A DNA stretch of 64,000 nt, taken from assembly GCA_934045905.1 (NCBI GenBank), contig OW203768.1:24271060-24335059 (forward strand). The letters are read 5' to 3'. The DNA comes from Leuctra nigra (taxonomy: Eukaryota > Arthropoda > Insecta > Plecoptera > Leuctridae). Position numbers and translations under genes: made by a program. The notes below the pieces were generated by a model that saw only the letters and a list, made by a program, of their open reading frames with translations, did not search any database and was not told where the DNA came from. Shown here one piece after another: positions 20,490-53,106 of the stretch; the first letter of the stretch is position 1, and every line of letters starts with the position of its first letter.

Positions 20490-20495
20490 CTAGCC
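20490..20495. repeat. Target-site duplication CTAGCC (left)
   Basis: CTAGCC immediately precedes the left inverted repeat and recurs exactly at 36479-36484 after the right one. Six base pairs is the duplication size established for Polinton/Maverick integration. Confidence 0.93.
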
Positions 20496-20640
20496 AGTAG
20501 ATAGCATTTGAGACTTCTGGGACAGGATGTGGAGATGTGGAAATCTCAGCTTAGAGTGTGAGCTTATGTTATGACGTCACATCTTGTTTTGGCGCCATTT
20601 TGTCACGTGTTTCCGGTTCCCACGCTCTAGTGTCAGCATA

Positions 20641-20760
20641 TTTTAACCATTTCCGCCATTTTATCCGCCATTTTGTTCCGCCATTTTGTCCACCATTTTA
20701 TCCGCCATTTTGTTCCGCCATTTTATCCACCATTTTATCCGCCATTTTCTTCCGCCATAT
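20641..20760 (+). promoter_or_regulatory. YY1-like GCCATTTT array (left arm)
   Basis: CCGCCATTTTRT or close variants occur about nine times at 11-13 bp spacing between 20651 and 20758. GCCATTTT resembles the core recognised by YY1-type zinc-finger proteins. CRE-like TGACGTCA sites lie at about 20572 and 20861. A regulatory or replication role is inferred from density, symmetry and placement at the element tips. Confidence 0.55.
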
Positions 20761-20889
20761 GCGTTTGACAGGGCGGCATTTTCAAACGTATTTCCGGTTC
20801 CTACACTCTAGCTCGAGCATATTTCTGCCATTTTCTTCCTTCATGTCACGTGTGTTCTTCTGACGTCACTTTTTTTAAATTAAAAATGT

Positions 20890-20965
20890 GTCCCGAGGTG
20901 GATTTGAACCTGCTACCATTGGAATACGAATCCAACGCCTTAACCTCTCGGCTAATTAGGCGATG
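20890..20965 (-). ncRNA. tRNA-like sequence in left inverted repeat (CGT loop)
   Basis: On the minus strand, TTAGCCGAGAGG (A box) and GGTTCAAATCC (B box) are at tRNA spacing. The D stem GCC/GGC and anticodon stem TTGGA/TCCAA pair, and the loop TTCGTAT would give anticodon CGT. The T stem (GCAGG/CCACC) has two mismatches and the 5' acceptor strand does not pair with the 3' TCGGGAC. It is therefore a tRNA-like or decayed tRNA gene with an intact internal Pol III promoter. The right-arm copy has loop TTCCTAT. Confidence 0.6.
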
Positions 20966-21060
20966 AGAGAAAGACAACGCAATAAGCATATACATAGATG
21001 GTTATTGACCTGTGCAGCAACGTCATCCAGTTGTCAAGGTAGGTATTGGCGCAAACATTT

Positions 21061-21284
21061 AAACTTCGCGCTCGGCTGCAGCGCTATCTAGGTGAGAATA
21101 ATTATATTTACTTAAAGCGGCATAAAAAATTTGAAGTTATATTTCGCGCTCGGCTACAACGCTATCTAGGTGATAATAAGTGTATTTACTAAAAGTGGCG
21201 CAAAAATTTTAATTTTAATTTCGTACTCGACTGTAGCACTCTTTAGGTGATAATAATTGTATTAATTAAAAGTGTCGCAAAAAA
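21061..21284 (+). repeat. Three about 78-bp iterons, left arm
   Basis: CGCGCTCGGCTGCAGCGCTA followed by TCTAGGTGA recurs with divergence at about 21066, 21145 and 21223. Each is followed by TAATAATTGTATT-like and AAAGTGGCGCAAAAA-like segments. The same iterons appear inverted at the inner part of the right arm. Possible replication or terminal-protein recognition sites; role unknown. Confidence 0.6.
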
Positions 21285-21373
21285 TATGAATTTAAAGATA
21301 ATTTGAAATTTTGTTTTGTTTTCACATAATCCAACTGATATTTGGACATTGAATCCTACATCTTATAAAGGAT

Positions 21374-21404
21374 TGGGATGTGGATGTGGATGAGGATGTG
21401 GATG
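21374..21404 (+). repeat. Subterminal GGATGN microsatellite (left)
   Basis: GGATGTGGATGTGGATGAGG continues for about 30 bp. A longer inverted version (CATCCT repeats) lies at 35285-35361 just inside the other end, so the pair is symmetrical about the element. Confidence 0.7.
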
Positions 21405-21899
21405 GTAGCATCTTTTTAATTATTATTATGAAATTTTGAATTGTGTTCACATATTCCAACTATTGAACAAAATATTAAATAAAGCATTGTAATGAATACA
21501 TCTCATGTCAAGTGCATTTATCAAATACACTTTACTGCTGAGGTAACAAGATACTCTAAAGACGCAATTGAACACCTGCATCATCACATCCGTCGGACAA
21601 TTGCGACGTATATTGGACTTTGGACCCTGCATCTCATAGTTGAACGGAAATGAAATCGCTGCATCATCAATTTTAGCACCTGGTTTGAGGCTAGTTCATC
21701 CATAAGGGAGTACCTCGTACGAGACTAATATCAGGTGTATGACCTCTTGTTACAATATTAATAAGTGTTGATTGCCAAATCAATCATTCTCTTCAAATCA
21801 ATCGACCAGTGCGGTTCATCTTCATATTGCATCAGAAGAATTGAATTGTGTGTCTAAAGTGAATTTTGCAAGCGGTGTGTTTTATCCGAGTGTTCATCA

Positions 21900-22594
21900 T
21901 TGTTTAATTATAATTATCATTACAAAGTTTTTATTTCTTCAAGTTTGTGTTACAAAGATTTGAGGTAAGTTTTTTTCACTTTCAAGCAAAATAGGTATTT
22001 ATAACAAATATAATTTTATGAATAGAATTTAATGTTTGCATTTTATTTTTTACAGGTTACACTTGTGTGATTTCCTAACAATCGGTTTCATTTTGTGGAG
22101 CGAGAGAGAACAGCGACTTTCACACATTCTGGTGAGTTATTCTTAATTTTTAAAAGAAGTTAAATGGATGTCTTTAAATTATTTCTACATTTTAGGTAAA
22201 CTAATAATCATTTTTTTATTTACAGTTTCTGGATTTGCTGCGAAACATTTTTCGTCTTCCGTCTTCGAAGGGAAAAACCAAGAGTTTAATCAAGGTACGT
22301 TTAAATAATAATTTTAAAGATAAAGTTGAATAACAATTAGGTCATACATTTCTATATTGGAAAATAATTAAATTATTTCTACATTATAGGTAAACTAATT
22401 TTAATTTTTTTAATTTACAGTTTCCGGAATTGCTGCGAAACATTTTCGTCTTCCGTCTTCATAGGAGAAAACCAGCAGTTTAATCAAGGTACGTTTAAAT
22501 GATAATTTCAAAGAGAAAGTTAAATAGCAATTAGGTAATACATTTCCATATTGGAAAATACATTTTTACAAATATTTTTATTTTATTTTTGTAG
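21900..22594 (+). other. Spliced noncoding leader of the polymerase gene
   Basis: Canonical splice sites predict short exons: one ending 21964 (donor GTAAGT), 22056-22131 (donor GTGAGT), 22226-22294 (donor GTACGT), 22421-22488 (donor GTACGT), and the polymerase exon from 22595 (acceptor TTTTTGTAG). The acceptors are TTTACAG or TTTTTACAG. The third and fourth exons plus their introns are a tandem duplication with a period of about 195 bp and share TTGCTGCGAAACATTTT. Exon 2 and exon 4 contain stops in frame, so I treat the exons as untranslated. Confidence 0.6.
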
Positions 22595-22598
22595 AAAG

Positions 22599-25500
22599 AT
22601 GGAGAACTTCAAGTGCGAGGAGTGCAATGCCAGCTTCAAGCGCAAGGATAGTCTGAAGCGGCATGGCAGGGTGCATAGTAAGGGGGAGAAGTCAACGTTC
22701 CCCTGTACAATTTGTGGCGTTACGTTTACTTTAAACTCCAATTTAAAACGTCACAAACTGGCTATGCATCCTTCCACTCCTCCATCTGATGGCAACACTT
22801 CAACAGCTCTTCACACGTGTACTCTCTGCAACGCATCGTTCAACCGCAGGGATAATCTGCAGGCCCATGTCAAGTATCATAAGCCCCCGAGTACTTCAAA
22901 CGCGGGGGTTGGACAAGTCGACGACTCAGCTTCACCATCAACTCCTGGGCCGTCAACATCATCGGTGCCTGCAGATGAACCCGATCAGTACACGTGTGAA
23001 GTGAGTAGTGCTCTCAGAGGAAACGTAAAATCATATACCTATAAAGGCGGTGAAGACAGTAGTGACGTTGAACATGATTCTTTAGATGTTTTAAAATTTG
23101 TTTCGGACAGAATGGACACGGTGAGAGTGAAATTAGCAAAAGATTTAGAAGTGTTTAAAGGTGTAAAATGGTACTTAAGTTTAGTGGTTCAATTTAAAAA
23201 GAATCGGGGTGAAGATGAGGTCATCACAAAAGCATGTTTTAGGAGTAAGAATAGTGTTTTAATTTATAATATGGATGAGTTTGACGAACAATTTAATGTA
23301 GCTTTTTCATCCATGGCTAAAGCATGTCAGAATTTCCAACGTGAAGGGAGCGGTTGGATCGTAGATAGAGTTTTACAATTAGAATTAAAATCAGTCAAAT
23401 ATGCTCCATTAGCTGCAAGTAGTTATATGCTTCTACCACCTAAATTATATTATACAAAATCGATTATAAATGTAAAAAATGACGACCAAAAGTGTTTCTT
23501 ATGGAGTATTTTAGCCCATCTTCACCCCATAGACATTCATGCAGAACGTGTAAATAATTATGTTAATTTTGAATCTAGTGTAAATATGAGTGGAATAGAA
23601 TACCCTGTAAAAATTAATAGCATAGATAGATTTGAGAAACAAAACGAGTCCATTTCCGTGAATGTGTATGGTGTAATGCCTGATAAATTCGGCAATTATA
23701 AAATAGTGTACCCCCTTAGAATTAGTAAAGAAAATAGAGATAGTCATATTAATTTGTTATTCATGTCCGACGAGGAAAATTCTCATTACTTCCTCATCAA
23801 GGACCTCAGTCGTCTTCTTAGTTCACTGACCAAACATCACGGTAGAGCATATTATTGTCATCGTTGCCTGCATAGATTTTCCACAGAGGAAAGGCTTGAA
23901 GCGCATCACACCCTCTGCGACTCACACGACCCTCAAAGAATTGTTATGCCTCAGGAGGGTAAAAATTCCATGAAGTTTAGAGAAAGAGGCTTTTCGTTTA
24001 AAGCACCTTTCACTATATATGCAGATTTTGAGTGCTTTGTGAGGAAGTTGAATGGTTGTGAACCTGATGATGCACGATCACATACGCATAAGACTGCTCT
24101 GCATGATCCTTCGGGATATGCCTTTGTTGTGATTGATGCGGAGGGAAAAGCATTCGAGCCACCTCGTGTGTACAGTGGTGATAATGTTGTGGATCATTTT
24201 CTTAATTCACTTCTGGTCATGCAGGAGAAATTATTGAAAATAATGTTCAAAATTATCCCTCTTAAGATGACAGATGAAGACGAGATTTCCTTTGCACAGG
24301 CCACCATGTGTAGCATTTGTGAAAAGACTCTGGACGATGTTGATCGTGTTCGTGACCATGATCACATAACTGGCAAATTTAGGGGTGCAGCACATAATGA
24401 ATGTAATATAAATGCACCTCAAGCCGAGCATATTCCTGTAATATTTCATAATCTTCGAAATTACGATTCACATCTCATTATGCAAGGCATTGGCAAAATT
24501 CAAAATCAGAAAATCATTGTAATCCCCAACAATACAGAGAAGTATGTGTCATTCTCATTGGGGCAGTTAAGATTCATTGACTCTTTTCAATTCATGAGCA
24601 CTTCTCTAGATTCACTAGTCAAAAATCTTGTCAACTATGGTTCTGACAGATTCAAAATTTTAAAATCATTCTTCAGTGAAGACCTTCTCCCTCTACTCTT
24701 GAGGAAAGGTGTATTCCCATACAGTTATTTTGATTCAGAAGAAAAGCTGATGGAAGGTTGCCTACCCCCTAAATCTGCCTTTAAGAATGATCTCACTGAA
24801 GAGGACATCAGTGATGATGATTACGAACACGCCCAAAATGTTTGGAGGAGTTTTGAAATGAAACACATGGGAGAGTATCAAGATCTCTATGTGTTAACTG
24901 ATGTACTGCTACTAGCGGATGTGTTTGAAAACTTTCGAACACTTTGTCTCGCCAACTACAAACTTGATCCTTGCCACACCTACACTGCTCCGGGTCTGGC
25001 ATGGGAGGCTTGCCTCCGCATGACCAAGGTAGAGTTAGAGTTATTTACAGACCCCGATATGTATTTGTTCATGGAGGAGGGTGTAAGGGGCGGTGTGGCA
25101 ACGATCACGACGCGATTTTCGGAAGCTAATAATAAATACATGGACGATTTCGATGCTGAGAAACCTTCGAAATATATCATTTATTGGGATGTTAATAATT
25201 TGTACGGTGTTGCAATGTCAGATTTCCTCCCCATCCGTGATTTCAAGTGGATGAGTCCGGCAGAAATCAGGAAAACTGACTTTACAACTGTTGCAGATGA
25301 CTCCGATAAAGGATATATTTTGGAGGTTGATCTCAAATATCCAAAAGAATTACATGACAAGCACAACGATTACCCTTTGGCACCTGAGCGAAAATGTGTG
25401 TCTGAAAGTGAACTCTCACCTTATGCCAAGCAACTCTCAGACGACCTGAAACTTGGTCATTCTAAAATCAAAAAGCTGGTTCCAAATTTGGAAAACAAAG

Positions 25501-26465
25501 AAAAGTATATTGTACACTACAAGAACTTGAAGCAATACACTTCTCTTGGCTTGAAATTGACAAAAATTCACCGCGTTCTAGAATTCACACAAACGCAATG
25601 GTTGAAACAATATATTGATTTCAATACAGCGCAACGTGTGAAGGCACAGAATGATTTTGAAAAAGACTTTTTTAAATTAATGAACAACGCTGTTTTCGGC
25701 AAAACTATGGAAAATGTCAGAAATCGGGTAAACGTTACGCTTATCAATGATGAGAAACAAATGTTAAAATATGCGGCAAACCCTGCATTCGAAAGATTTG
25801 AAATATTTTCCAACAATCTAGTTGCAGTACAGTGTAAGAAAATCTGTCTGAAACTAAATCGACCAATCTATGCAGGCTTCAGTATTTTAGATTTAAGTAA
25901 AACCATCATGTATGATTTTCACTATAATTATGTAAAAACTAAATACAATCAAAATTCAAAATTATTATTCACAGACACAGACTCACTGTGTTATGAGATC
26001 CAGACTGATGATCTATATCAAGACATGGCCAATGACATTTCGCTATTTGATACTTCCAATTTGCCGAAAGATCACTTCCTTTTTTCCAACACTAATAAAA
26101 AGGTGTTGGGAAAAATGAAAGACGAGTCGGACGGTAGAATTGTGAAGGAATTTGTGGGTTTAAGGGCAAAAATGTACAGTCTCTTGGAGTTGGACGGTAG
26201 AAACAAAAAGGTTGGTAAAGGCATAACTAGAGCCACAATGAAAAAATATGTTACTCATCAAAAGTATAGAGCCGCCTTATTTGAAAAATGTGTACAAAGT
26301 GAGAAAATGATGTCCATCCGTAGCTTCAAACATGAAATATTTACTGTCAGTCAGAGGAAGAGTACACTATCACCGTTCGACGACAAGAGATACATTCTAC
26401 ATGATGGTTTCAACACCCTAGCATACGGTCATTTTAGAATAGACACGGAAATGGACATAGATTAG
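22599..26465 (+). CDS. Protein-primed family B DNA polymerase with C2H2 fingers
   Basis: This is the replicative polymerase of the element, predicted to act with a terminal protein at the inverted-repeat ends in the nucleus. From the chosen ATG the protein has 1288 aa. Three C2H2 fingers open it: C6-C9-H22-H26, C36-C39-H52-H57 and C74-C77-H90-H94. Exonuclease motifs follow: IYADFECF (D476, E478), NLRNYDSH (D623) and YVLTD (D768). An HNH-like Cys/His insert (CSIC to DHDH, residues 571-604) lies between them. Polymerase motifs are YWDVNNLYG (D864), NNAVFGKTMEN (K1035) and FTDTDS (D1126, D1128), then KEFVGLRAKMY. The upstream in-frame ATG at 22551 lies in a predicted intron (acceptor AG at 22593-22594), so I start at 22599. 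Length and motif order are normal for Polinton PolB; all key residues are present. Confidence 0.93.
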   Translation: MENFKCEECNASFKRKDSLKRHGRVHSKGEKSTFPCTICGVTFTLNSNLKRHKLAMHPSTPPSDGNTSTALHTCTLCNASFNRRDNLQAHVKYHKPPSTSNAGVGQVDDSASPSTPGPSTSSVPADEPDQYTCEVSSALRGNVKSYTYKGGEDSSDVEHDSLDVLKFVSDRMDTVRVKLAKDLEVFKGVKWYLSLVVQFKKNRGEDEVITKACFRSKNSVLIYNMDEFDEQFNVAFSSMAKACQNFQREGSGWIVDRVLQLELKSVKYAPLAASSYMLLPPKLYYTKSIINVKNDDQKCFLWSILAHLHPIDIHAERVNNYVNFESSVNMSGIEYPVKINSIDRFEKQNESISVNVYGVMPDKFGNYKIVYPLRISKENRDSHINLLFMSDEENSHYFLIKDLSRLLSSLTKHHGRAYYCHRCLHRFSTEERLEAHHTLCDSHDPQRIVMPQEGKNSMKFRERGFSFKAPFTIYADFECFVRKLNGCEPDDARSHTHKTALHDPSGYAFVVIDAEGKAFEPPRVYSGDNVVDHFLNSLLVMQEKLLKIMFKIIPLKMTDEDEISFAQATMCSICEKTLDDVDRVRDHDHITGKFRGAAHNECNINAPQAEHIPVIFHNLRNYDSHLIMQGIGKIQNQKIIVIPNNTEKYVSFSLGQLRFIDSFQFMSTSLDSLVKNLVNYGSDRFKILKSFFSEDLLPLLLRKGVFPYSYFDSEEKLMEGCLPPKSAFKNDLTEEDISDDDYEHAQNVWRSFEMKHMGEYQDLYVLTDVLLLADVFENFRTLCLANYKLDPCHTYTAPGLAWEACLRMTKVELELFTDPDMYLFMEEGVRGGVATITTRFSEANNKYMDDFDAEKPSKYIIYWDVNNLYGVAMSDFLPIRDFKWMSPAEIRKTDFTTVADDSDKGYILEVDLKYPKELHDKHNDYPLAPERKCVSESELSPYAKQLSDDLKLGHSKIKKLVPNLENKEKYIVHYKNLKQYTSLGLKLTKIHRVLEFTQTQWLKQYIDFNTAQRVKAQNDFEKDFFKLMNNAVFGKTMENVRNRVNVTLINDEKQMLKYAANPAFERFEIFSNNLVAVQCKKICLKLNRPIYAGFSILDLSKTIMYDFHYNYVKTKYNQNSKLLFTDTDSLCYEIQTDDLYQDMANDISLFDTSNLPKDHFLFSNTNKKVLGKMKDESDGRIVKEFVGLRAKMYSLLELDGRNKKVGKGITRATMKKYVTHQKYRAALFEKCVQSEKMMSIRSFKHEIFTVSQRKSTLSPFDDKRYILHDGFNTLAYGHFRIDTEMDID

Positions 26466-26691
26466 AGAATTTAGAATTAGTTATAATAATATCACATCAA
26501 CATCACATCAATGTCAATGTACCTGTTAACATGACACATGTTTGTAAAATACATGTTTTATTCTAAACTTATGTTTTTTATAAATAATTTGTTTCCCTTC
26601 TTCACTCTCAATCCTCATTCCTTGACAATTTATGATTTTCAAAAAATATTATAAATTTATCAACAAATATATTTTAATCTCATTCAACAAA

Positions 26692-27327
26692 ATGGATCCA
26701 ACCTGGAAGGTTCCTTTTACAGCTTTGATTGCGGGGCCCACATCATGTGGCAAGTCTTATTTTATACGCCGTTTTTTAACAAATTTGGATTCTATGGTAG
26801 ATGAACCTATAAAAAATATTATTTGGTGTTTTGCCGAGTGGCAGAGTTTATATGAATCTATTCAAGATCCACGAGTCAAGTTCCACGAGGGAATTATTAA
26901 TCCTGCCGACTTGTCTGCATCTTCCGGGGCTCAAATTTTGATTATCGATGATCTAATGCGAGAAGCAGATGATAGGGTTGTGGACTTGTTTACCAAAATC
27001 TCACATCATCGTAAAGTGAGTGTATTTCTAATTTCTCAAAATATTTTTAATCAAGGTAAGGGACGACGTGATATCTCTTTGAATGCCCACTATATTATTC
27101 TTTTTAAAAATCCTCGTGATAAGTCTCAAATTTTACATCTCGCAAGGCAGGTATGCCCTAGAAACATGAAACATGTGCAAGAATCTTTCGAAGATGCAAC
27201 GAGTCAACCTCACGGCTATATTCTATTTGATTTTACACAGACTTGCCCCGAGAATATGAGATTGCGCACTCATATTTTCCCTGATGATGAGGCCTGTGTT
27301 GTATACACACCAAAATCTACTAAATGA
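26692..27327 (+). CDS. FtsK/HerA-type genome-packaging ATPase
   Basis: 211 aa from the chosen ATG. Predicted to pump element DNA into capsids. Walker A is GPTSCGKS (residues 15-22), Walker B is ILIIDDLM (IIDD at 84-87), and a polar sensor motif SQN follows at 115-117. These are the motifs of Polinton and large-DNA-virus A32-like ATPases. An in-frame ATG at 26632 would add 20 residues (KKYYKFINKY type), but the downstream ATG with CAAAATGG context matches where this compact family usually begins. It lies 226 bp after the polymerase stop. Nothing is missing. Confidence 0.9.
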   Translation: MDPTWKVPFTALIAGPTSCGKSYFIRRFLTNLDSMVDEPIKNIIWCFAEWQSLYESIQDPRVKFHEGIINPADLSASSGAQILIIDDLMREADDRVVDLFTKISHHRKVSVFLISQNIFNQGKGRRDISLNAHYIILFKNPRDKSQILHLARQVCPRNMKHVQESFEDATSQPHGYILFDFTQTCPENMRLRTHIFPDDEACVVYTPKSTK

Positions 27328-27361
27328 CACTACATTGTCATAAAAGCTTCATTTCATCACG

Positions 27362-27703
27362 ATGACTGACTCAACGAGGAGGTATAGTGAACTCCTCAAG
27401 GCATTGAGTAAAGCAACCCCTGCTATGCGCAAGAGTATATTAAAATCAGCAGATAAAGGTTTGACTCAATCAATTTGTGCTTGTGTATTAAACACATTAA
27501 AAGGTCGTGTTCTCTTGAAACCCTCTCAGAAGAATAAACTTCGTCGTCATAAGAAGTTCTTACGAAAAATTGCACGCAAGGGTGATAGCTGGAAAACTAA
27601 GAAAAAAATTTTGGTTCAGTCTGGTGGTGCGTTTCTCCCACTTTTGATTGCTCCGCTTATTAGTGGACTTTTGGGAAGTATTTTTAACTCATCATCATCA
27701 TAA
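27362..27703 (+). CDS. Small basic protein with hydrophobic tail
   Basis: 113 aa. The body is rich in Lys/Arg (KNKLRRHKKFLRKIARKG near 55-72). The C-terminus is a hydrophobic segment (AFLPLLIAPLISGLLGSIF) followed by serines. This layout, between ATPase and integrase, is common in arthropod Polintons. A DNA-binding or membrane-active virion component (core or pVI-like) is plausible but inferred. It starts 34 bp after the ATPase stop and ends 5 bp before the next ATG. Confidence 0.8.
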   Translation: MTDSTRRYSELLKALSKATPAMRKSILKSADKGLTQSICACVLNTLKGRVLLKPSQKNKLRRHKKFLRKIARKGDSWKTKKKILVQSGGAFLPLLIAPLISGLLGSIFNSSSS

Positions 27704-27708
27704 TCATT

Positions 27709-28428: not shown

Positions 28429-29513
28429 ATTCTAAAATATGTAAAAGATTGTCTCGTATTTATAATGATCCTGGGCATCCAGCTGGATTTTCTACTTTAA
28501 ATGCACTGTGGAAGGCAACTAATAAAGAGATTCCTAAAAAAATTATTTTGCAATGGCTTCAATCTCAAGATACTTATAGTTTACATAAACCTGTTCGAAA
28601 AAGATTTAAACGTAACCGATACATAGTCAACAGCATTGATGAACTATGGCAGGCTGATTTAAATGATATGAGATCACTCAGTAAATTTAATGATAAATAC
28701 AACTATTTGTTATCTGTAATTGATGTATTCAGTAAATTTGCTTGGTTGATTCCTCTTAAACAAAAGACAGGTAAAGAAGTGTCTCAGGCTTTCGCAAAGA
28801 TTTTCAAACAAAGTAAGCGTAAACCTGTTCGCATACAGACCGATAAAGGCCGAGAATTTAAAAATTTACATTTTCAAAAATTTCTCACCAAAAATAATGT
28901 TCATTTTTACTACACAAATAACCCTGACACCAAAGCGTGTATAGCTGAGAGGCTCAACCGATCAATCAAGGAAATGATGTGGAAGTATTTTACATTAAAG
29001 AACACGTATCGCTACATAAATGTACTACCAAAACTGATGAATGCTTATAATCATCGAGTGCATAGGTCAATTGGTATGATGCCAGCTGCGGTGAGTGACA
29101 AAAATGCTCTTGAAGTTTGGCGTCATCTTTATAAAGATAATGAAATTGAGAGTAGGAAACGATCTAAACCTAAATTAAAGGTAGGTGATTATGTGCGTAT
29201 CAGCAGAGAAAAAATAATTTTTGATAAGGGTTACGAACAAAATTGGTCTGACGAAATATTCAAAGTCATTTGTATTGTTGATCGACACCAAGTGGTGTAT
29301 AGAATTGAAGATTTAGAAGGTGAGGAAATTGTTGGAACGTTTTATGAAAAAGAATTGCAAAAAGTTACGAAGGGTGATAATTCTCTTTACAAAATACATA
29401 AAATCATACGCAAAACGAGGCAGGGCGTCAGTGAGAAAGTTTTGGTTCAGTGGAAGGGTCTGCCTGCCAAATTCAACTCTTGGATATTAGCTTCTGACAT
29501 TCAAAAAATATGA
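28425..29513 (+). CDS. Retroviral-type integrase with chromodomain
   Basis: 362 aa. Catalyses insertion of the element, giving the 6-bp duplication seen at its ends. The rve core has WQADLND (D78), QTDKGREF (D140) and IAERLNRS (E175), a D,D35E triad. The C-terminus has an SH3-like stretch (LKVGDYVRISREK) and then a chromodomain-like segment (YKIHKIIRKTRQG to VQWKGLPAKFNSWI), as in many Polinton and chromoviral integrases. No N-terminal HHCC finger is evident. It overlaps the genes on both sides by 4 bp (ATGA). Confidence 0.93.
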   Translation: MNSKICKRLSRIYNDPGHPAGFSTLNALWKATNKEIPKKIILQWLQSQDTYSLHKPVRKRFKRNRYIVNSIDELWQADLNDMRSLSKFNDKYNYLLSVIDVFSKFAWLIPLKQKTGKEVSQAFAKIFKQSKRKPVRIQTDKGREFKNLHFQKFLTKNNVHFYYTNNPDTKACIAERLNRSIKEMMWKYFTLKNTYRYINVLPKLMNAYNHRVHRSIGMMPAAVSDKNALEVWRHLYKDNEIESRKRSKPKLKVGDYVRISREKIIFDKGYEQNWSDEIFKVICIVDRHQVVYRIEDLEGEEIVGTFYEKELQKVTKGDNSLYKIHKIIRKTRQGVSEKVLVQWKGLPAKFNSWILASDIQKI

Positions 29514-30286
29514 ATCGTTCTCTCTACATGACGTTGCCTAGCAACAGTTCGATGAAAATGTATAAGGATAATACGACAGCAAATTTTGTCACTCAATTGC
29601 AGGAACCTGTAAAATTATCAGGAGGTCCCTGGGAGGTATCTTTGGTTGAACTTCATTACCCACAAACGCTGTTCAATGTGACTAAAGGTCAAAATTATGT
29701 TGGTGTTTCACGAAAAACTATTCTAGGAAAGAAAAAAACTAGGGTATATGAAAGAGTGGACATAAAGCCGGGCTACTATGAAACTGGTGACATGTTGTTG
29801 AAAACTATCAATGATGCAATAAAACACCTGGATATCAGCATTGCACCGCTCAGCGATTTGAATGCAAGCGGCTGTATTTCTGTGAAGAATAGTAAAGATG
29901 AAGAGCATGAAGTAAATTTTGCGCCTAATCTCGCTATTCAATTGGGTTATGAACACAACATTACAAATGGCGTGTGTCCATTAGTCGGTAGAGCAATAGA
30001 TGTTGATGCTGGAACTCCCAAATCTATCTTTGTGTATTGTAATGTAATAGAACCTCAAATCGTAGGGGACGTGGTTGCTCCGCTATTACGTATTGTCAAT
30101 ACACAATATAAAACTCACAAATTTGGTGAACAAGTCACTCAAAGATTTTTAAATTTACTCTACGTTCCGGTTATGATTCATGAGATTAGAAGCATCGAAA
30201 TTGATTTAAGAGGAGACACTGGTGATTCGTTACCATTTCAAGCTGGAACTTCTGCTGTGGTGCTTCATTTTCGCCACCGATCATAA
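29510..30286 (+). CDS. Minor capsid (penton-like) protein
   Basis: 258 aa. Predicted single-jelly-roll vertex protein. The opening MNRSLYMTLPSNSSMKMYKD and the block PVKLSGGPWEVSLVELHYP are characteristic of Polinton penton proteins, and the size is normal. It starts inside the integrase stop (ATGA) and its own stop overlaps the next ATG by one base (TAATG). It would assemble with the major capsid protein encoded downstream. The assignment rests on motif and position, as the fold cannot be seen directly. Confidence 0.85.
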   Translation: MNRSLYMTLPSNSSMKMYKDNTTANFVTQLQEPVKLSGGPWEVSLVELHYPQTLFNVTKGQNYVGVSRKTILGKKKTRVYERVDIKPGYYETGDMLLKTINDAIKHLDISIAPLSDLNASGCISVKNSKDEEHEVNFAPNLAIQLGYEHNITNGVCPLVGRAIDVDAGTPKSIFVYCNVIEPQIVGDVVAPLLRIVNTQYKTHKFGEQVTQRFLNLLYVPVMIHEIRSIEIDLRGDTGDSLPFQAGTSAVVLHFRHRS

Positions 30287-30774
30287 TGGATGTGGAACTT
30301 TATACAAAATTTTACCGAGACCAGGCTGGAGGAAGATTGAATGTTTATCATGGTGCAAGTTATCAACGTGGTCATGGGTTTGCAAGCTTCTTCAAAGGGT
30401 TGTTTAAATCTGCTATTCCTCTACTAAGAAGCGGTGCTCGTGTTGTTGCTCATGAGACGGCTAGAACGGGAGCAAATTTTCTGGGTGATTTAGTTGAGAA
30501 TAAACCTGTGAAAGAATCATTTCATAGGCGAGTCGGTGAAGCAGGTGCAAATCTCAAACGAAAAGTAGAAGACAAATTTCAAAATATGACTGGTGATGGG
30601 ATAAAAAGGTTGAAGAGGTTACGCATTCTTCAGTGTCAGAGCAAACGTAAGAGGAACAAGATCTCTCCGAAAAAAACTCTAAACATCAAGCCTAAAAAGA
30701 AGAAGGTGGTTAAAAAGACAAAGAAGAAGAAGACGACAAATACACCTGGTTGTTTTACAGACATTTTTGCATAA
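30286..30774 (+). CDS. pVI/pX-like basic virion protein
   Basis: 162 aa. After a short N-terminus comes GHGFASFFKGLFKSAIPLL (residues 26-44), an amphipathic segment like the membrane-lytic region of adenovirus pVI-type proteins and the Polinton cement or core proteins. Then come VAHETARTGANFLGDL and a very basic C-terminus with several Lys runs (KPKKKKVVKKTKKKK). Likely roles are cement, membrane penetration or DNA condensation, with processing by the element protease; all inferred. It overlaps the penton gene by 1 bp and ends 2 bp before the capsid ATG. Confidence 0.75.
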   Translation: MDVELYTKFYRDQAGGRLNVYHGASYQRGHGFASFFKGLFKSAIPLLRSGARVVAHETARTGANFLGDLVENKPVKESFHRRVGEAGANLKRKVEDKFQNMTGDGIKRLKRLRILQCQSKRKRNKISPKKTLNIKPKKKKVVKKTKKKKTTNTPGCFTDIFA

Positions 30775-30776
30775 TC

Positions 30777-32117
30777 ATGTCTCTTATGCATGCAGAATCC
30801 GAAAAGGCGATGAAATCGGAATTGAATATTTTTGAAGTTCCATCGACTCAAATTTGTCTTGAGAGAGGTGATTGGTATCCTTATAAACCCATTGCTGCAA
30901 TGACAGAATTTGCCCCATTTGAATTTGTTGTTCCTGCACAAGGTGAGGAATACATAGATATAGGTCAATCTCTGCTTGCACTTCAAGCAAAAATTGTGAA
31001 TGCAGATGGCTCGCCGCTTGCAACTCTTGTCAAAAAATCAGATGGTGCTGTTCAAACGGCTGCTGCTGTGGTGGCGCCCGTCAATAATTTCATGCATTCT
31101 CTGATTGCTCAGTTTGAGATGACTTTAAACGGAAAACTTCTCCCTTCATCAAATAATAACTATGCCTATCGTTCATTTTTTGAGAATTGTATGCACTTTG
31201 GTCCCTCTGCTAAGAGTTCACATAGAACATGTCAACTTTGGTATAAAGATACTGCTGGATTTATGGAGGATTTTGATAAGAATTTAGGGCTTCAGAAACG
31301 AAAAAAGTATACAGATGGAAGTCAAATTGTGGATATGATTGGAAATATTCATGGCGATTTGTTCAATCAAGACCGTCTCATACCAAATGGTGTGGAGTTA
31401 CGCATGAAGTTTATCAAGAGCAGAGATTCGTTTCATCTCATGGCCGGCTCCAATGCATCCTTCAAGACAATCATCACTGATGCTACTCTTTTTGTGCGAA
31501 AAGTTCGCGTGAATGAGTCTGTTATGATTGCACAAAATATTGTTTTAGAAGGAGCCAATGCAAAATATCCTCTAACAAGAGTAGATGTCAAGCTGGTAAC
31601 TATCCCAGCAGGAATACAAAGCAAGGAAATAGGCAATTTATTCATGACGGGTAATCCGAAGAAAATTATCATTGGACTTGTCTCCAATGCAGCTGTTAAC
31701 GGGAGCTATACAAAGAATCCCTTCAACTTTCAACATTTTGGATTAAACCACTTCTGCATGTATGCGGATGGTCAACAAATCCCAGCTAAACCACTGCAAC
31801 CCGACTTTGATACTAACCAATATGTCGCCTGCTATCATACATTGTTTTCTGGGAATGGTATTCACTTTAAGGATCGAGGTATTGATATTTCTCGTGAAGA
31901 ATATCCAAATGGAATCTTTTTATTGGCCTTTGACCTGAGTCCAGACCTCTCTTGTAATGAAAATCATTATAGTCTGCAACACAACAAGAATTTACGTATC
32001 GATCTTCGTTTTAAAGAAGCACTTAAAGAAGCTATCGATGTGATTGTATATGCAGAGTTTGATAATATTCTAGAGATAGATCGCAATCGAAATGTGATTG
32101 TCGACTATAGTAATTAA
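30777..32117 (+). CDS. Major capsid protein (double jelly-roll, hexon-like)
   Basis: 446 aa. It would form the capsid shell as trimeric capsomers. Recognisable Polinton capsid blocks include STQICLERGDWYPYKPIA near 21-38, EYIDIGQSLLALQAKI, NNFMHSLIAQFEMTLNGKL, and near the end NYVACYHTLF-like and YPNGIFLLAFDLSPD. The frame opens earlier, at 30750, inside the previous gene, but the ATG at 30777 sits 2 bp after the previous stop and begins MSLMHAESEKAM, so I use it. Length is normal for Polinton capsid proteins. Confidence 0.9.
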   Translation: MSLMHAESEKAMKSELNIFEVPSTQICLERGDWYPYKPIAAMTEFAPFEFVVPAQGEEYIDIGQSLLALQAKIVNADGSPLATLVKKSDGAVQTAAAVVAPVNNFMHSLIAQFEMTLNGKLLPSSNNNYAYRSFFENCMHFGPSAKSSHRTCQLWYKDTAGFMEDFDKNLGLQKRKKYTDGSQIVDMIGNIHGDLFNQDRLIPNGVELRMKFIKSRDSFHLMAGSNASFKTIITDATLFVRKVRVNESVMIAQNIVLEGANAKYPLTRVDVKLVTIPAGIQSKEIGNLFMTGNPKKIIIGLVSNAAVNGSYTKNPFNFQHFGLNHFCMYADGQQIPAKPLQPDFDTNQYVACYHTLFSGNGIHFKDRGIDISREEYPNGIFLLAFDLSPDLSCNENHYSLQHNKNLRIDLRFKEALKEAIDVIVYAEFDNILEIDRNRNVIVDYSN

Positions 32118-32213
32118 TATTGTTTGAATATTGTAGTGTTTGAAATGGTATAATAAAATTGATATATTGAAATGTATTTGTGTTTTTTATTCAGTCTTAG
32201 CCCAACCCTCATC
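32118..32213. promoter_or_regulatory. Capsid gene 3' end and BIR gene leader
   Basis: A TATAATAAAATTGATATATTG stretch (about 32149-32169) contains an AATAAA polyadenylation hexamer immediately after the capsid stop and could double as an AT-rich promoter. A TTTTTTATTCAG splice-acceptor-like run lies at about 32183-32194, just before the BIR gene ATG. Confidence 0.35.
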
Positions 32214-32957
32214 ATGAGTTGTACTATTGATTTCGAGACGGTGGCTGTCGGCTACGATACTCATGTTGTGAAAGAAATTGCTGTTGTTGACAACATAACC
32301 AAAAAATCAAAACAGTGGATTTTAGAAAATGGATCGTACGGCGAAAGAAGTCCGTCGATTCTGGTATTTGATGACTCTAGTGAAACAAATTTTACTGGTT
32401 TCACGTACGCAAACTGCAGAGCTAGAGATGAAGCATTAAAAATCATGGTTTTCACTCACTGTCTGGGTTATAAACTAAAATATACCAGAGGCAGAACAAA
32501 TGTGAAATATTTAGACAACATATTCTGGAGAAATGTTATTGATTTGAATGATTTCGAGTATGACTCATCGTCATCATTTCCATACGAAGAAATAAAGTGT
32601 TACGTCCATGGTGTGCATATTGGTTTTGCGGGTGAAATGTGCTCTCTGAAAAGTGCAATGAAGCTGTCACAGTGGTGTGTTGCAAACAGTGAAAAAACCG
32701 ACATGTTTCAACTGGAGCCAAGATTGAAATCATTTGCATCATTCCCGAATGACAATGTCACCGCACGCGACTTGGCCGAGGCTGGGTTATATTACACGTT
32801 TCATGGAGACAAAGCTGCCTGTCCATCATGTGGGGTCGTGATACATAAATGGTTGCCTCAAGACATCCCGTTTTATGAACATAAACACTGGAGCCCTGAT
32901 TGTATGTTCATTCGAGGTTTACCTATGGATGCGAAGAGTACTGTTGTTAAGGATTAA
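32214..32957 (+). CDS. BIR (inhibitor-of-apoptosis-like) domain protein
   Basis: 248 aa from the ATG at 32214. An in-frame ATG at 32172 precedes a splice-acceptor-like TTTTTTATTCAG and adds only a hydrophobic leader, so I prefer the later one. The C-terminal third is a single BIR domain. It starts near RLKSFASFP and carries the zinc ligands in the exact C-x2-C-x16-H-x6-C spacing (CPSCG to HKHWSPDC). No RING finger is present. The N-terminal 150 residues are unassigned; IDFETVAVG followed by KEIAVVD recalls the first motif of DEDD exonucleases, but the other motifs are not clear. BIR proteins bind caspases or regulate cell death; a host-death-blocking role here is inference. Confidence 0.85.
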   Translation: MSCTIDFETVAVGYDTHVVKEIAVVDNITKKSKQWILENGSYGERSPSILVFDDSSETNFTGFTYANCRARDEALKIMVFTHCLGYKLKYTRGRTNVKYLDNIFWRNVIDLNDFEYDSSSSFPYEEIKCYVHGVHIGFAGEMCSLKSAMKLSQWCVANSEKTDMFQLEPRLKSFASFPNDNVTARDLAEAGLYYTFHGDKAACPSCGVVIHKWLPQDIPFYEHKHWSPDCMFIRGLPMDAKSTVVKD

Positions 32958-32963
32958 TTTAAA

Positions 32964-33479
32964 ATGTATGCAAATGTATTAAAAAATGCACTTTCTCAAG
33001 ATAAATATTATAAAGATTTATTTATTGGTGTTTTTGCTGCTGATACACTACCTAAACATGTGGGTCGTCCGATTCAATTGATTGCCAATACCGACATAGC
33101 AAGGTGCAAGGGTCAACATTGGGTCGCTTGTCACATTAATACGCATGGAAATGGGGAATTTTTTTGTAGTTTTGGCTATCCCCCGCTCATTCGACAACAC
33201 CGTCAATTTCTAAATCAACATTGTAAAAGCTGGACATATAATCGTATTCCACTACAAAGCGTTACATCAAATGTTTGCGGTGAATATTGCGCTATTTTCT
33301 TAGCTCATAGAGCTAGAGGGAAAACACTAAATTCGTTTCTCAAACATTTTAATAAAAAATCACCTGAAAAAAATGATCGACTCGTGAGATCAACCTATTT
33401 TAAAATATTCGGCCACTGCATGAAACATGACACCGGATATGGTGGACAGTGCTGTTGCGCACGTGCAATCAAAAAATAA
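32964..33479 (+). CDS. Adenain-like cysteine protease with unusual acid position
   Basis: 171 aa. Predicted maturation protease that cleaves virion proteins, as adenain does in adenoviruses. GQHWVACHI holds the catalytic His (H52). VCGEYCAIFL holds the nucleophile (C105), and Q98, seven residues earlier, fits the oxyanion-hole Gln. The acid position normally occurs as FE/FD before a Gly-containing turn; here the segment is EFFCSFGYPP, so Cys68 occupies the place of Glu71 of adenain, with Glu65 nearby. A Cys-rich tail (GQCCCA) follows. It starts 6 bp after the BIR gene stop. Function may be retained, altered or lost. Confidence 0.85.
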   Translation: MYANVLKNALSQDKYYKDLFIGVFAADTLPKHVGRPIQLIANTDIARCKGQHWVACHINTHGNGEFFCSFGYPPLIRQHRQFLNQHCKSWTYNRIPLQSVTSNVCGEYCAIFLAHRARGKTLNSFLKHFNKKSPEKNDRLVRSTYFKIFGHCMKHDTGYGGQCCCARAIKK

Positions 33480-33660
33480 TGCGCATTTCATAGGAGAGGT
33501 CAATGTCCTGCATTTCCTGTTCAAACCTGTCTTGTTTCAAAGTAAAAATGCTGACGATTACATTTTGTTAGATTCAATTTGATTTGCGATTTACCATGAA
33601 AGAGGTCAGTTACCTCTGAAGATTTATCGAAGATAGTTGAAATTGTATATTTAAAAAAAA

Positions 33661-34326
33661 ATGGAAATCACTCCAGCAATAGACGAAAAACCATTTCTCG
33701 GTGTTGTGCAATCACTTTTCTATGTGAATCCATATCGATCAAAACTGATTATCGTTGGGCTGAATGCTGAAGATGAATTTACACCGTTTGTTAAAATAAT
33801 TTCATCGATAAATGGTTCTGGTGTGATTATATCGTTTTTGGAATGGACAGAATTTTTGGAAGAACTCAAGATGTGGACCACATATGCGTTTATCATCGAT
33901 GTTCGAGATTCACCTCAAAAAGTGTTTGATAATCATACCATGTTTGTCGAAGAAAATGTTCATGGGAAATATATCGGTTTAAAAAGTATAAGTAATGTGA
34001 ATTTCGGTGTGATTTTAAGTGAAAGGACATGTAGAGAAATTCTGAAGCAATCAGAAGCCATCACTTTTACTCTAACACAAGTCAAAGATAGAAGCAGTGG
34101 TGTTAAGAATGCGTATTGTAGATTTGTGAAAACAAATTTAAATAATTATCTAAAAACACGATTAATTAAAAAATCTGATGTTAATATAGATGATTTGTCC
34201 CAGTTTGTTAAAACTATTGTGAAAATGGATAATCAACGTGATAAAATCAATCAGAGAGTTGTGTTTGAATTAGGAATGGATTTTTTATTAAAAGAAATGA
34301 ATCTTGAAATTTCAAAGAAATGCTAA
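33661..34326 (+). CDS. Orphan 221-aa Polinton protein
   Basis: No domain recognised. It begins MEITPAIDEKPFLGVVQSLF after an A-run and has alternating hydrophobic strands (LIIVGLNAED, GVIISFLEW, YAFIIDVRD) suggestive of an alpha/beta or beta-rich fold. A charged helical C-terminus (SQFVKTIVKMDNQRDKIN) follows. It is a single uninterrupted frame, 182 bp after the protease, in the late 3' part of the element where accessory genes usually sit. It could be a lineage-specific host-interaction gene; this is inference. Confidence 0.75.
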   Translation: MEITPAIDEKPFLGVVQSLFYVNPYRSKLIIVGLNAEDEFTPFVKIISSINGSGVIISFLEWTEFLEELKMWTTYAFIIDVRDSPQKVFDNHTMFVEENVHGKYIGLKSISNVNFGVILSERTCREILKQSEAITFTLTQVKDRSSGVKNAYCRFVKTNLNNYLKTRLIKKSDVNIDDLSQFVKTIVKMDNQRDKINQRVVFELGMDFLLKEMNLEISKKC

Positions 34327-34542
34327 CTATTGTATAATATTCAGTGAGTGATTGCCCAACTTTGTGTTTCGTGAGAATAATACGTCATCAATATTTTGTT
34401 TGTAAATTAATGAATTGACAACATCAAGAAGCGGATGTCTCTTGACATTTCACGAGTCGTCATCAGTACAGCCTTCAACCTTCAACGGTCGACATCGTTC
34501 AACACTTTGCTCTTCGCTGCAGTAAATCATCTCAACATAACA

Positions 34543-34989
34543 ATGGTGAGTAATTACATTTACAATATTAGGATATATTTGTATTAAATTTAAATCAAAG
34601 CATTCGTAAAACACTTTTCTTTCGTTGATTTGTTTTAGACGTTCGTAGAGAAATTCAACAATGTGGGAAGCGGGAACATCTCAGCTATGATTCTAGTGAA
34701 GAAAATATGTGAAATGGAGCACCTGATGTGGTACACCATCGAAGAAATGAAACGTGTCAAGACAAAATATGGTCCATCTCTCCTGGCAACAGTTTCCTTT
34801 GTCTCGGAATGGCAACCAAAAATAGGAGAAGAGCAACATTATGCAATCAAATTTTTTTTACCAAAACGTTTCAACGATGTATTTACTGATGATGATTTGA
34901 AGGAAATTAACGAAAAACGTTTATATCAAATTCAGTATGAAGGACAAGATCACTCCAACAGTTATGCTCTACAATTAAGAAAAAAGTAA
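34543..34989 (+). CDS. Two-exon 117-aa conserved-looking small protein
   Basis: The start codon appears to sit alone in exon 1. ATG at 34543-34545 is followed directly by a GTGAGT donor; the intron is 34546-34638, ending TTGTTTTAG; exon 2 is 34639-34989. Joined, the protein begins MTFVEKFNNVGSG. Calling the start at the GTG at 34663 would lose nine residues and is unlikely in an animal. Blocks include MEHLMWYTIEEMKRV and FFLPKRFNDVFTDDDL, with alternating strands that could form an OB-like fold. I recall similar proteins annotated as uncharacterised in arthropod Polintons, but function is unknown; ssDNA binding is a guess. Confidence 0.75.
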
Positions 34990-35284
34990 ATTGTAACAAT
35001 ATTTGATATGACGTAAAATTTATAATATTTTGAATGTATCACTTTATATTATGCTTTCAATAGTGAACACAATATGAAAAACATGTGCCGAGATCTTTTA
35101 GGGGAGCTTATGAAAAAATATCAAGTTGTGACTAGAATCCTATTTGAAATTTTTATATGAAACGAAGTTAAATTAATTGTCAAGAACTTGGTATTTATTT
35201 ATAAGCAAACTTAACCAACCCATTATTAAGAGTAAACATATTTTCACCTTCTCTTATCTTCATCCTCATCATCACCCCCACCCC
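34990..35284. other. Noncoding stretch after last Polinton gene
   Basis: AT-rich with no supported frame. It probably holds the 3' UTR of the last gene. It leads into the CATCCT microsatellite. Confidence 0.45.
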
Positions 35285-35361
35285 ATCCACATCCTCATCC
35301 TCATCCTCATCCTCATCCTCATCCTCATCCTCATCCTCATCCTCATCCACATCCTCATCCT
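35267..35361 (-). repeat. Subterminal CATCCT microsatellite (right)
   Basis: About ten CATCCT units are preceded by a CCACCCCATCCACATCC variant segment. It is the inverted counterpart of the GGATGN tract at 21374. Frames in it coding Ile-Leu or Glu-Asp repeats are artefacts. Confidence 0.85.
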
Positions 35362-35451
35362 GGCTAGATACCCGGTTTTGATTCTGCTGTGTATTAATAA
35401 AAATTATAATGTCCCCGTATAAGTGACGACATATTGCAACATACCTTCGTT

Positions 35452-35525
35452 GGCTCATTAGCTCAGTTGGTTAGAGCGTTGTGCTCATCGTGCAAAAGTC
35501 GTGGGTTCGATCCCCACATGGGCTA
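35452..35525 (+). tRNA. tRNA gene, Ile-like body with CAT anticodon
   Basis: A 74-nt cloverleaf is visible. Acceptor GGCTCAT pairs with ATGGGCT (with wobble pairs); D arm GCTC/GAGC; anticodon stem TTGTG/TGCAA with two wobbles; loop CTCATCG giving anticodon CAT; T arm GTGGG/CCCAC perfect with loop TTCGATC. A T-run (ATTTTTTT, 35527 onward) can end Pol III transcription. The body, especially ATTAGCTCAGTTGGTTAGAG and the T arm, resembles animal tRNA-Ile(AAT), whose loop would be CTAATAA. Only the anticodon loop differs strongly, so this may be a retargeted or drifted tRNA-Ile. It lies inside the element, just before the right inverted repeat. Confidence 0.75.
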
Positions 35526-35563
35526 CATTTTTTTAAAGTCAGTCGACATACAAAATGATTTAG

Positions 35564-35790
35564 TTTTTGCGCCACTTCTTATGAATACAATTATTGTCTC
35601 CTAGATAGCGTTGTAGTTGAGCGCGAAATATACATTCAAATTTTTGTGCCGCTTTTAGTAAATACAATTAGTGTCACCTAGATAGCGTTGTAGTCGAGTC
35701 AAGTTTAAATTCAAATTTTTTGTGCCGCTTTTCGTGAATGTAATTATTATCACCTAGATAGCGCTGCAGTCGAGCGCGAAGTTTAAATGT
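35564..35790 (-). repeat. Iterons, right arm
   Basis: Three to four degenerate units each contain CTAGATAGCG(T/C)TG(T/C)AGT followed by GAGCGCGAA-like sequence at about 35611, 35676 and 35755. They mirror the 78-bp iterons of the left arm. Confidence 0.6.
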
Positions 35791-35879
35791 TTGCGCCAAT
35801 ACCTACCTTGACAACTGGATGACGTTGCTGCACAGGTCATTAACCACCTATGTATTTGCTTATTGCATCGTCTTTCTCT

Positions 35880-35955
35880 CATCGCCTAATTAGCCGAGTG
35901 GTTAAGGCGTTGGATTCCTATTCCAATGGTAGCAGGTTCAAATCCACCTCGGGAC
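35880..35955 (+). ncRNA. tRNA-like sequence in right inverted repeat (CCT loop)
   Basis: The same A box (TTAGCCGAGTGG) and B box (GGTTCAAATCC) as the left-arm copy, with loop TTCCTAT (anticodon CCT) between TTGGA/TCCAA. The T-stem mismatches and unpaired acceptor 5' strand are identical to the left copy. A TTTTT run begins about 4 nt downstream, a possible Pol III stop. Confidence 0.6.
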
Positions 35956-36032
35956 ACATTTTTAATTTAAAAAAAGTGACGTCAGAAGAACACACATGAC
36001 ATGAAGGAAGAAAATGGCGGAAATGTTTAAAA

Positions 36033-36338
36033 TAAGCTTGGACTAGAGTGTAGGAACCGGAAATATGTTTGAAAATGCCGCCCTGTCAAACGCACATGGC
36101 GGAAGAAAATGGCGGATAAAATGGTGGATAAAATGGTGGAACAAAATGGCAGATAAAATGGCGGAAATGGTTAAAATATGCTTACACTAGAGTGTAGGAA
36201 CCGGAAATACGTTTGAAAATGCCGCCCTGTCAAACGCATATGGCGGAAGAAAATGGCGGAACAAAATGGCGGATAAAATGGTGGACAAAATGGCGGAACA
36301 AAATGGCGGATAAAATGGCGGAAATGGTTAAAATATGC
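36033..36338 (-). promoter_or_regulatory. Duplicated YY1-like array (right arm)
   Basis: Two about 147-bp units each have AGTGTAGGAACCGGAAAT, GAAAATGCCGCCCTGTCAAA and a run of AAAATGGCGGA motifs; more than 15 such motifs occur in 300 bp. ACCGGAAAT also matches an ETS-type core. Confidence 0.6.
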
Positions 36339-36478
36339 TGACACTAGAGCGTGGGAACCGGAAACACGTGACAAAATGGCGCCAAAACAAGATGTGACGT
36401 CATAACATAAGCTCACACTCTAAGCTGAGATTTCCACATCTCCACATCCTGTCCCAGAAGTCTCAAATGCTATCTACT

Positions 36479-36484
36479 CTAGCC
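36479..36484. repeat. Target-site duplication CTAGCC (right)
   Basis: Exact copy of 20490-20495, directly after the right inverted repeat tip. Confidence 0.93.
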
Positions 36485-52965: not shown

Positions 52966-53106
52966 TCCTTTTTAATATGGCAATTATTTCAGTTATATGT
53001 TCAAATTTAACAAAACCCACGTTTTTCTCTTTATTTAATGTTCTTATGGGAAAAATAAATATTTACCATACCACTTGCAAAGTTCAAAAAGATGGACTAG
53101 TGAAGT

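Follow-up and report, generated by a model that had tools for sequence, protein, structure and literature searches.

A complete adintovirus-type Polinton that has multiplied recently in the genome of Leuctra nigra

We analyzed a stretch of 64,000 nucleotides (nt) of Leuctra nigra DNA (the window; contig OW203768.1 of assembly GCA_934045905.1, positions 24,271,060 to 24,335,059 of the forward strand) and found that the element at 20496-36478 of the window, 15,983 nt long, is a genuine, complete and recently active adintovirus-type Polinton. We give a probability of about 0.85 to the reading that it is an adintovirus, present here as a single integrated copy, whose numbers in this host genome have grown recently; the family is now named Eupolintoviridae and was formerly Adintoviridae (NCBI taxonomy, International Committee on Taxonomy of Viruses; PMC12451622). 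This kind of element is already known. What marks it as a variant is a gene with a BIR domain at a fixed position, the presence of RNA polymerase III (Pol III)-type cassettes in the inverted repeats, and differences between the ends of the copies.

The element begins with AGTAGATAGC at 20496 and ends at 36478 with GCTATCTACT, and both repeat ends and both CTAGCC target duplications were read directly. It contains 12 ATG-started open reading frames (ORFs) of 100 to 1288 amino acids (aa), all on the plus strand and with no internal stop in 3,852 codons. The host assembly (536 Mb in 144 contigs) was searched with the outer 205 nt of the element, and at least 89 matching stretches were obtained, several per end; grouping by eye placed these in 14 pairs of element length, with 12 ends left unpaired. 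An exact 6-bp duplication was present in all 11 copies for which both ends were read (the window copy included, and one copy after correction of its right end), each of the 11 had a duplication sequence of its own, and both orientations occurred on several contigs. The major capsid gene was 99.7 to 100% identical to that of the window in all 13 other copies, with 0 to 4 nt differences per copy and 13 in the 16,994 nt aligned, one copy contributing only 902 nt of the gene. In the same 13 copies the BIR gene had 1 to 8 nt differences (35 in 10,216 nt) and the protease gene 0 to 4, plus gaps in two. For the DNA polymerase PolB, the 3' end of the gene was read in 7 other copies, with 98.8 to 99.8% identity. 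The capsid frame was open over its full length in 11 of the 13 copies and lay partly within the fetched piece in one, the BIR frame was open in all 13, and the protease frame was open in 10. Counting against our reading are the remaining capsid gene, which has a stop, and the remaining three protease genes, two of them frame-broken and one without a start. Taken together, these results demonstrate recent, repeated spread by insertion. An earlier note, made from the letters of the window alone, had placed the element's ends to the base, had counted 12 open genes on one strand, had inferred recent activity and had proposed a search for near-identical copies elsewhere in the assembly; the ends and genes were found as described, the search was positive, and the near-identical copies and their separate target duplications support the inferred activity. 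As a separate observation, the capsid gene varied less than the BIR gene or the 3' end of PolB (30777-33479 region, 13 copies), a comparison among copies that are not independent of each other.

The polymerase, integrase and major capsid assignments are well supported. PolB, a family B DNA polymerase of the protein-primed type, had 6,897 homologues among 7,995 scored candidates and was 48% identical (534 of 1,103 alignment columns) to the GenBank protein 'PolB [Parasteatoda house spider adintovirus]'. Its N-terminus has three C2H2 zinc fingers, whereas the spider adintovirus PolB has none by pattern, and an endonuclease VII-like stretch is also present. We rejected the fingers as a novelty because 39 of 120 relatives among the matches listed have at least one by pattern (in the 27 of these 120 without a vOTU motif, the first 250 residues were scanned). 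Cys299 was invariant in 18 of 18 aligned PolBs, the window's included, and His396 was kept in at least 90% of the 18, one row lacking the His region; these residues presumably correspond to the vOTU protease pair of PMC11071308, and an N-terminal OTU-like domain in PolB is part of the adintovirus definition (PMC11071296). The retrovirus-type integrase matched the rve core family PF00665 with an E value of 3.7e-12 (46.8 bits versus a cutoff of 32.6), and its residues 322-361 matched the chromodomain family PF00385 with an E value of 6.9e-5 at 23.1 bits, below the cutoff of 25.1. For the capsid protein, 708 homologues were kept among 7,996 scored candidates, and the 120 matches listed included Ladona, Athalia, Frankliniella and Bemisia proteins and one record named Major capsid protein; scans of IMG/VR using the capsid gave no matches. 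Its structure model (predicted local distance difference test [pLDDT] score, 76.5; predicted template modelling [pTM] score, 0.79) matched the Sputnik capsid best in PDB (E = 1.5e-15), with iridovirus, Paramecium bursaria chlorella virus 1 (PBCV-1) and mavirus capsids also matched, and when compared to viral models its first match was a bracovirus ORF (35% identity), followed by numerous double jelly-roll capsids. The PolB identity, the rve integrase with its sub-cutoff chromodomain and the double jelly-roll capsid model thus agree with the adintovirus type that the earlier note had assigned. That note had also listed an ATPase, a protease and two capsid genes and had called the element intact: the ATPase, the penton-like protein and the protease are less secure than the polymerase, the integrase and the major capsid protein, and intactness holds for the reading frames, while one presumed active-site residue of the protease is unusual.

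Polintons, or Mavericks, are about 16 kb long and have long inverted repeats, a 6-bp target duplication, a PolB and an integrase. The element in the window has all of these and does not differ in kind from them; it belongs to the adintovirus branch of the animal Polintons. Compared to adintoviruses, it stands apart by its BIR gene, its Pol III-type end cassettes and its unusual protease residue, some of which may occur in named genomes. The Drosophila-associated adintoviruses 1 to 3 are 13.3 to 14.6 kb long, with 10 to 12 proteins given for two of them (PMC8363768).

Relatives were also found outside the host. A contig from a Bathymodiolus symbiont bin (L003) matched the ATPase, the 113-aa and 239-aa proteins, the integrase, the penton-like protein and the capsid in the same order, with no protease found, and a contig from an Escarpia symbiont bin (L004) matched the penton-like protein, the 162-aa protein, the capsid and the protease, also in the same order. 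The frames of both relatives are broken, whereas those of the element are open. L003 and L004 hold remnants of animal adintoviruses, so the bacterial symbiont bins probably include host DNA (mussel and tubeworm). Two IMG/VR contigs found with PolB (L001 and L002) carry adintovirus-like PolBs of 41% and 39% identity and different virion-type genes, and L001 carries a related integrase; no tRNA gene was found in either.

We compared the ends of the copies with their cores. In 5 of 10 other copies, the outer ends were 92 to 95% like those of the window (for one right end, 90.5% across 84 nt), and the capsid genes were 99.8 to 100% identical. Two of these five had no capsid difference at all, so that 10 of 149 and 9 of 149 end positions differed versus 0 of 1341 capsid positions (p = 7.6e-11 and 8.0e-10). 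Within each of the five, the copy's own two ends agreed at 95.3 to 100% (compared over 85 nt in one copy); in four copies this agreement plainly exceeded that with the window. One copy had a clear step in its left end, the outermost 150 nt being 93.3% like the window and the next 642 aligned positions holding 3 mismatches; its right end had no step (bins of 94.7, 97.0, 95.0 and 97.0%). These pairwise comparisons of ends and cores suggest that ends may have been exchanged between co-replicating genomes and copied imperfectly from end to end; we prefer such an exchange because a higher rate of change at the ends would not by itself produce a sharp step. If ends were swapped, several genomes would have been replicated together outside the chromosome, because the same capsid gene occurs with different ends, and the mosaicism would then provide evidence, from sequence, of extrachromosomal replication of the protein-primed kind. 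A simple form of this exchange is harder to reconcile with two other copies in which one end equaled the window's and the partner end was 98.0 or 98.7% identical, and with the divergent ends themselves, which do not form a single class (two of them share 94.7% of their outer 150 nt).

Three cassettes of Pol III type lie within the element, one facing outward in each inverted repeat and the third in a tRNA-Met(CAT)-like gene. In all three, an A box and a B box (consensus motifs) are followed by a T-run 13 nt past the B box, at equal spacing. The combined pattern, which was written after the three cassettes had been seen, occurred 3 times in the element, 0 times in the rest of the window and 0 times in 300 dinucleotide shuffles, and the one further B-box match in the window had neither an A box nor a T-run. 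At least one outward cassette was present at 21 of the 22 ends read. Of the 13 other copies, 10 yielded the 74-nt tRNA-Met-like gene, which was unchanged (100% identity) in 9 of them and had 98.6% identity in the tenth; of the other three, one has an unread right end, one was represented by too short a piece, and one has a 1,149-nt piece without the gene that should reach it if the copy is built like the window's. A tRNA gene in a virus was rejected as a novelty, since such genes are reported in Polinton-like viruses (PLVs) and virophages, where a genome scan gave 558 tRNAs, explained by codon supply (PMC12220804). Those viruses resemble the present element in being small double jelly-roll DNA viruses with a tRNA gene in the genome; the PLVs are viruses of protists, whereas the window holds an animal adintovirus with two more, outward cassettes inside its inverted repeats, and it is this location, which the excerpts of PMC12220804 do not mention, that is unusual. 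The linear, protein-primed genome of adenoviruses carries virus-associated (VA) RNA genes with Pol III-type internal promoters. The Pol III genes predicted here are like these in having internal A and B boxes and a T-run on a linear DNA virus of the protein-primed type and differ in that two of the three lie in inverted repeats.

It is nearly an even chance that these end signals are instead functionless remnants of tRNA-derived repeats or of tRNA genes that had been captured, or that the tRNA-Met-like gene is an ordinary translation tRNA. Functional RNA genes are put in doubt by the two broken T-arm pairs in each of the repeat tRNA-like sequences, which score near the Rfam cutoff, and by the two cassettes that were folded, which did no better than shuffles (z = -1.10 and -1.30); in addition, no tRNA was found in L001 to L004, where element ends are not established (none were found in L003), and the tRNA genes of PLVs and virophages already have an explanation in codon supply. 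Against this reading stand the equally spaced A box, B box and T-run in all three cassettes, the outward cassette at nearly every end read and the near-identity of the tRNA-Met-like gene in 10 copies, although recent copies would share the gene anyway. Broken T-arm pairs with the boxes kept would suit a promoter more than a tRNA.

The gene between the capsid and protease genes encodes a C-terminal BIR domain that scored 65.1 bits against PF00653 (cutoff, 22.9). The earlier note had overlooked this domain, as it had the Pol III-type cassettes, the number of copies, the end differences and the unusual protease residue. Its best solved relatives in PDB were BIRC1 chains and 'Apoptosis 1 inhibitor', and its zinc ligands, as judged by eye in the translation, are spaced as in the BIR motif. 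The protein thus shares an above-cutoff BIR domain with cellular and viral IAP proteins and differs from them in that the domain is single and C-terminal, after a 170-aa region without relatives. The first 172 residues matched no Pfam family and had only poor PDB matches, the best of which, a likeness to trans-sialidase (E = 0.014), was taken as chance, and no RING domain was matched in Pfam. Less favorable to our reading of the element were the search with the whole protein, which kept 0 of 340 scored candidates, and the model of the protein alone, which was useless (pLDDT, 30.6). In L004, the protease match begins about 20 nt past the end of the capsid match, and there is therefore no BIR gene at that junction; the simplest reading is that the gene was inserted at this point, a single relative being thin evidence. 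Anti-apoptotic homologues are mentioned for mammal-associated adintoviruses (PMC11071296). No animal Polinton with an IAP or BIR, tRNA or Pol III gene was named in the titles and abstracts searched, and the founding adintovirus description may contain them; the same terms were also looked for in the excerpted texts of PMC4061559, PMC12220804, PMC10675990, PMC11071296, PMC11071308, PMC8363768, PMC10675110 and PMC4028283.

These features can be joined into a fuller account, which we put forward tentatively and hold to be less likely than not: a recently spreading family of animal adintoviruses whose linear genomes would be co-replicated and swap ends, which would have acquired an IAP-type gene and which may carry, in its repeats, outward Pol III-driven RNA genes like the VA RNA genes of adenoviruses. 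In the main reading, the copies would descend from linear genomes that are replicated outside the chromosome by the protein-primed PolB, the terminal-protein part of which may be cut off by the vOTU domain. Pairing of the ends into panhandles would keep the two ends of a genome alike, and ends would occasionally be exchanged with a co-replicating relative. Also in the main reading, the capsid, ATPase and protease would, at least formerly, have formed particles, the BIR protein may blunt host cell death or immune signaling, and the three cassettes could make short RNAs, either tRNA-like or, by analogy, like adenovirus VA RNA. A BIR gene together with Pol III-type genes in the repeats would suggest that the host cell is handled in the manner of adenoviruses and baculoviruses. 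Whether animal Polintons continue to function as viruses is an unsettled question, and this genome offers many near-identical, individually datable insertions with which polymorphism, expression and end exchange could be studied in one species.

An alternative that we consider less likely than not is that the element is now purely a transposon, spread by its integrase and PolB in germline cells with its capsid genes carried along without particles. All of the copies seen are integrated with target duplications, as such a transposon would be, and the main point in its favor is the protease. This protein is adenain/S273R-like by a weak match to the structure of the African swine fever virus (ASFV) S273R protease (E = 0.08) and matched the L004 frame at E = 4.4e-31. 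Its presumed catalytic acid, which is Asn/Asp in S273R and L004, is Cys in the window and in all 13 other copies, and both this residue and the weak structure match count against our main reading. We rejected the explanation that the Cys is a lesion of the window copy only because it is also found in the 13 others; in one frame-broken copy, a second, overlapping protease piece reads Leu at this position in the other frame. Since the frames persist and the family has spread, either the protein may function despite lacking the acid, or the maturation of particles may have ceased to be important. Weighing against a transposon alone are the capsid frame, fully open in most of the other copies, although young copies look open even without selection, and the order of the virion genes, which is common to distant relatives, as expected under selection.

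The inverted repeats bear on a further alternative, that the element is old, domesticated or inactive and intact by chance or host selection. The repeats are 100% identical over 229 nt as an ungapped arm, and in the gapped alignment the mismatches from outside to inside were 0 in 222 nt, 5 in 101, 20 in 326 and 26 in 138. The inner parts thus differ by 5 to 19% and look old when taken alone; however, the outer 222 nt are identical, and uniform divergence is unlikely (0 of 222 versus 25 of 427 mismatches; Fisher p = 3.9e-5), so inner divergence was dropped as a measure of age. In protein-primed linear genomes that form panhandles, the extreme ends are expected to be homogenized, and the outer identity fits such homogenization of the very ends. 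Under neutral decay, with assumed indel rates and no selection, 12 intact frames retain a 5% chance only up to about 0.2 to 0.6% divergence, and the many near-identical copies also contradict an old element, unless they are assembly duplicates; we therefore regard great age as very improbable. Least probable of all is that the copies are segmental or assembly duplications rather than independent insertions, since their nearly identical cores, which would suit it, come with a different 6-bp duplication in each of 11 copies and with both orientations on several contigs.

The remaining genes are given in Table 1. The ATPase and penton-like assignments rest on motif and gene order and are putative: Pfam AAA-type matches to the ATPase were below the cutoff, its L003 match was split into two pieces in the same gene order, and the 258-aa protein, which had no Pfam or PDB match, is one that we take to be penton-like from its position and resemblance. 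As a side observation, the gene junctions at 28425-28428, 29510-29513 and 30286 overlap by 4, 4 and 1 nt, as in coupled translation.

Table 1. Positions in the window of the element's features, with the basis for each
Feature	Position	Strand	Basis
Left target site duplication CTAGCC	20490-20495	.	Read directly
Left terminal inverted repeat	20496-21286	+	Outer 222 nt same as right repeat, inner part diverged
tRNA-like sequence in left repeat, outward-facing	20897-20954	-	Rfam tRNA 29.3 bits (gathering 29); A box, B box, T-run
PolB, family B DNA polymerase, protein-primed type, 1288 aa	22599-26465	+	Profile matches, homologues, alignment
P-loop ATPase, presumed packaging ATPase, 231 aa	26632-27327	+	Walker-like motif by eye, L003 gene order
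113-aa protein	27362-27703	+	Conserved in L003, E 2.4e-18
239-aa protein	27709-28428	+	Conserved in L003, E 2.1e-21
Integrase, retrovirus-type (rve), 362 aa, weak C-terminal chromodomain	28425-29513	+	Pfam, PDB integrases
Penton-like minor capsid protein (presumed), 258 aa	29510-30286	+	Position, syntenic matches in L003 and L004
Basic protein, 162 aa	30286-30774	+	Conserved in L004, E 1.1e-17
Major capsid protein, 446 aa, double jelly-roll	30777-32117	+	Homologues, structure model
261-aa protein, C-terminal BIR domain (residues 184-247)	32172-32957	+	PF00653, PDB IAP proteins
Adenain/S273R-like cysteine protease, 171 aa	32964-33479	+	Weak structure match, L004 match
221-aa protein	33661-34326	+	No convincing relative in Pfam, PHROGs, NCBIfam, PDB
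100-aa protein	34687-34989	+	No convincing relative in Pfam, PHROGs, NCBIfam, PDB
tRNA-Met(CAT)-like gene	35452-35525	+	ARAGORN; Rfam 53.9 bits; A box, B box, T-run
Right terminal inverted repeat	35561-36478	-	Repeat alignment
tRNA-like sequence in right repeat, outward-facing	35891-35948	+	Rfam tRNA 31.3 bits; A box, B box, T-run
Right target site duplication CTAGCC	36479-36484	.	Read directly

Within the element, a 194-nt unit is present as two repeats at 22174-22560, immediately upstream of the PolB start, and is possibly a control region. A hexamer repeat, ATCCTC, at 35256-35361 gives rise to an acidic, low-complexity minus-strand ORF (35195-35458), the Pfam matches of which were under the cutoff and are probably meaningless. 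The flanks of the element contain other mobile elements, namely a Mutator-like transposase and LINE-type (long interspersed nuclear element) reverse transcriptases (4207-6021, 45645-45989, 48896-49837 and 51079-52988).

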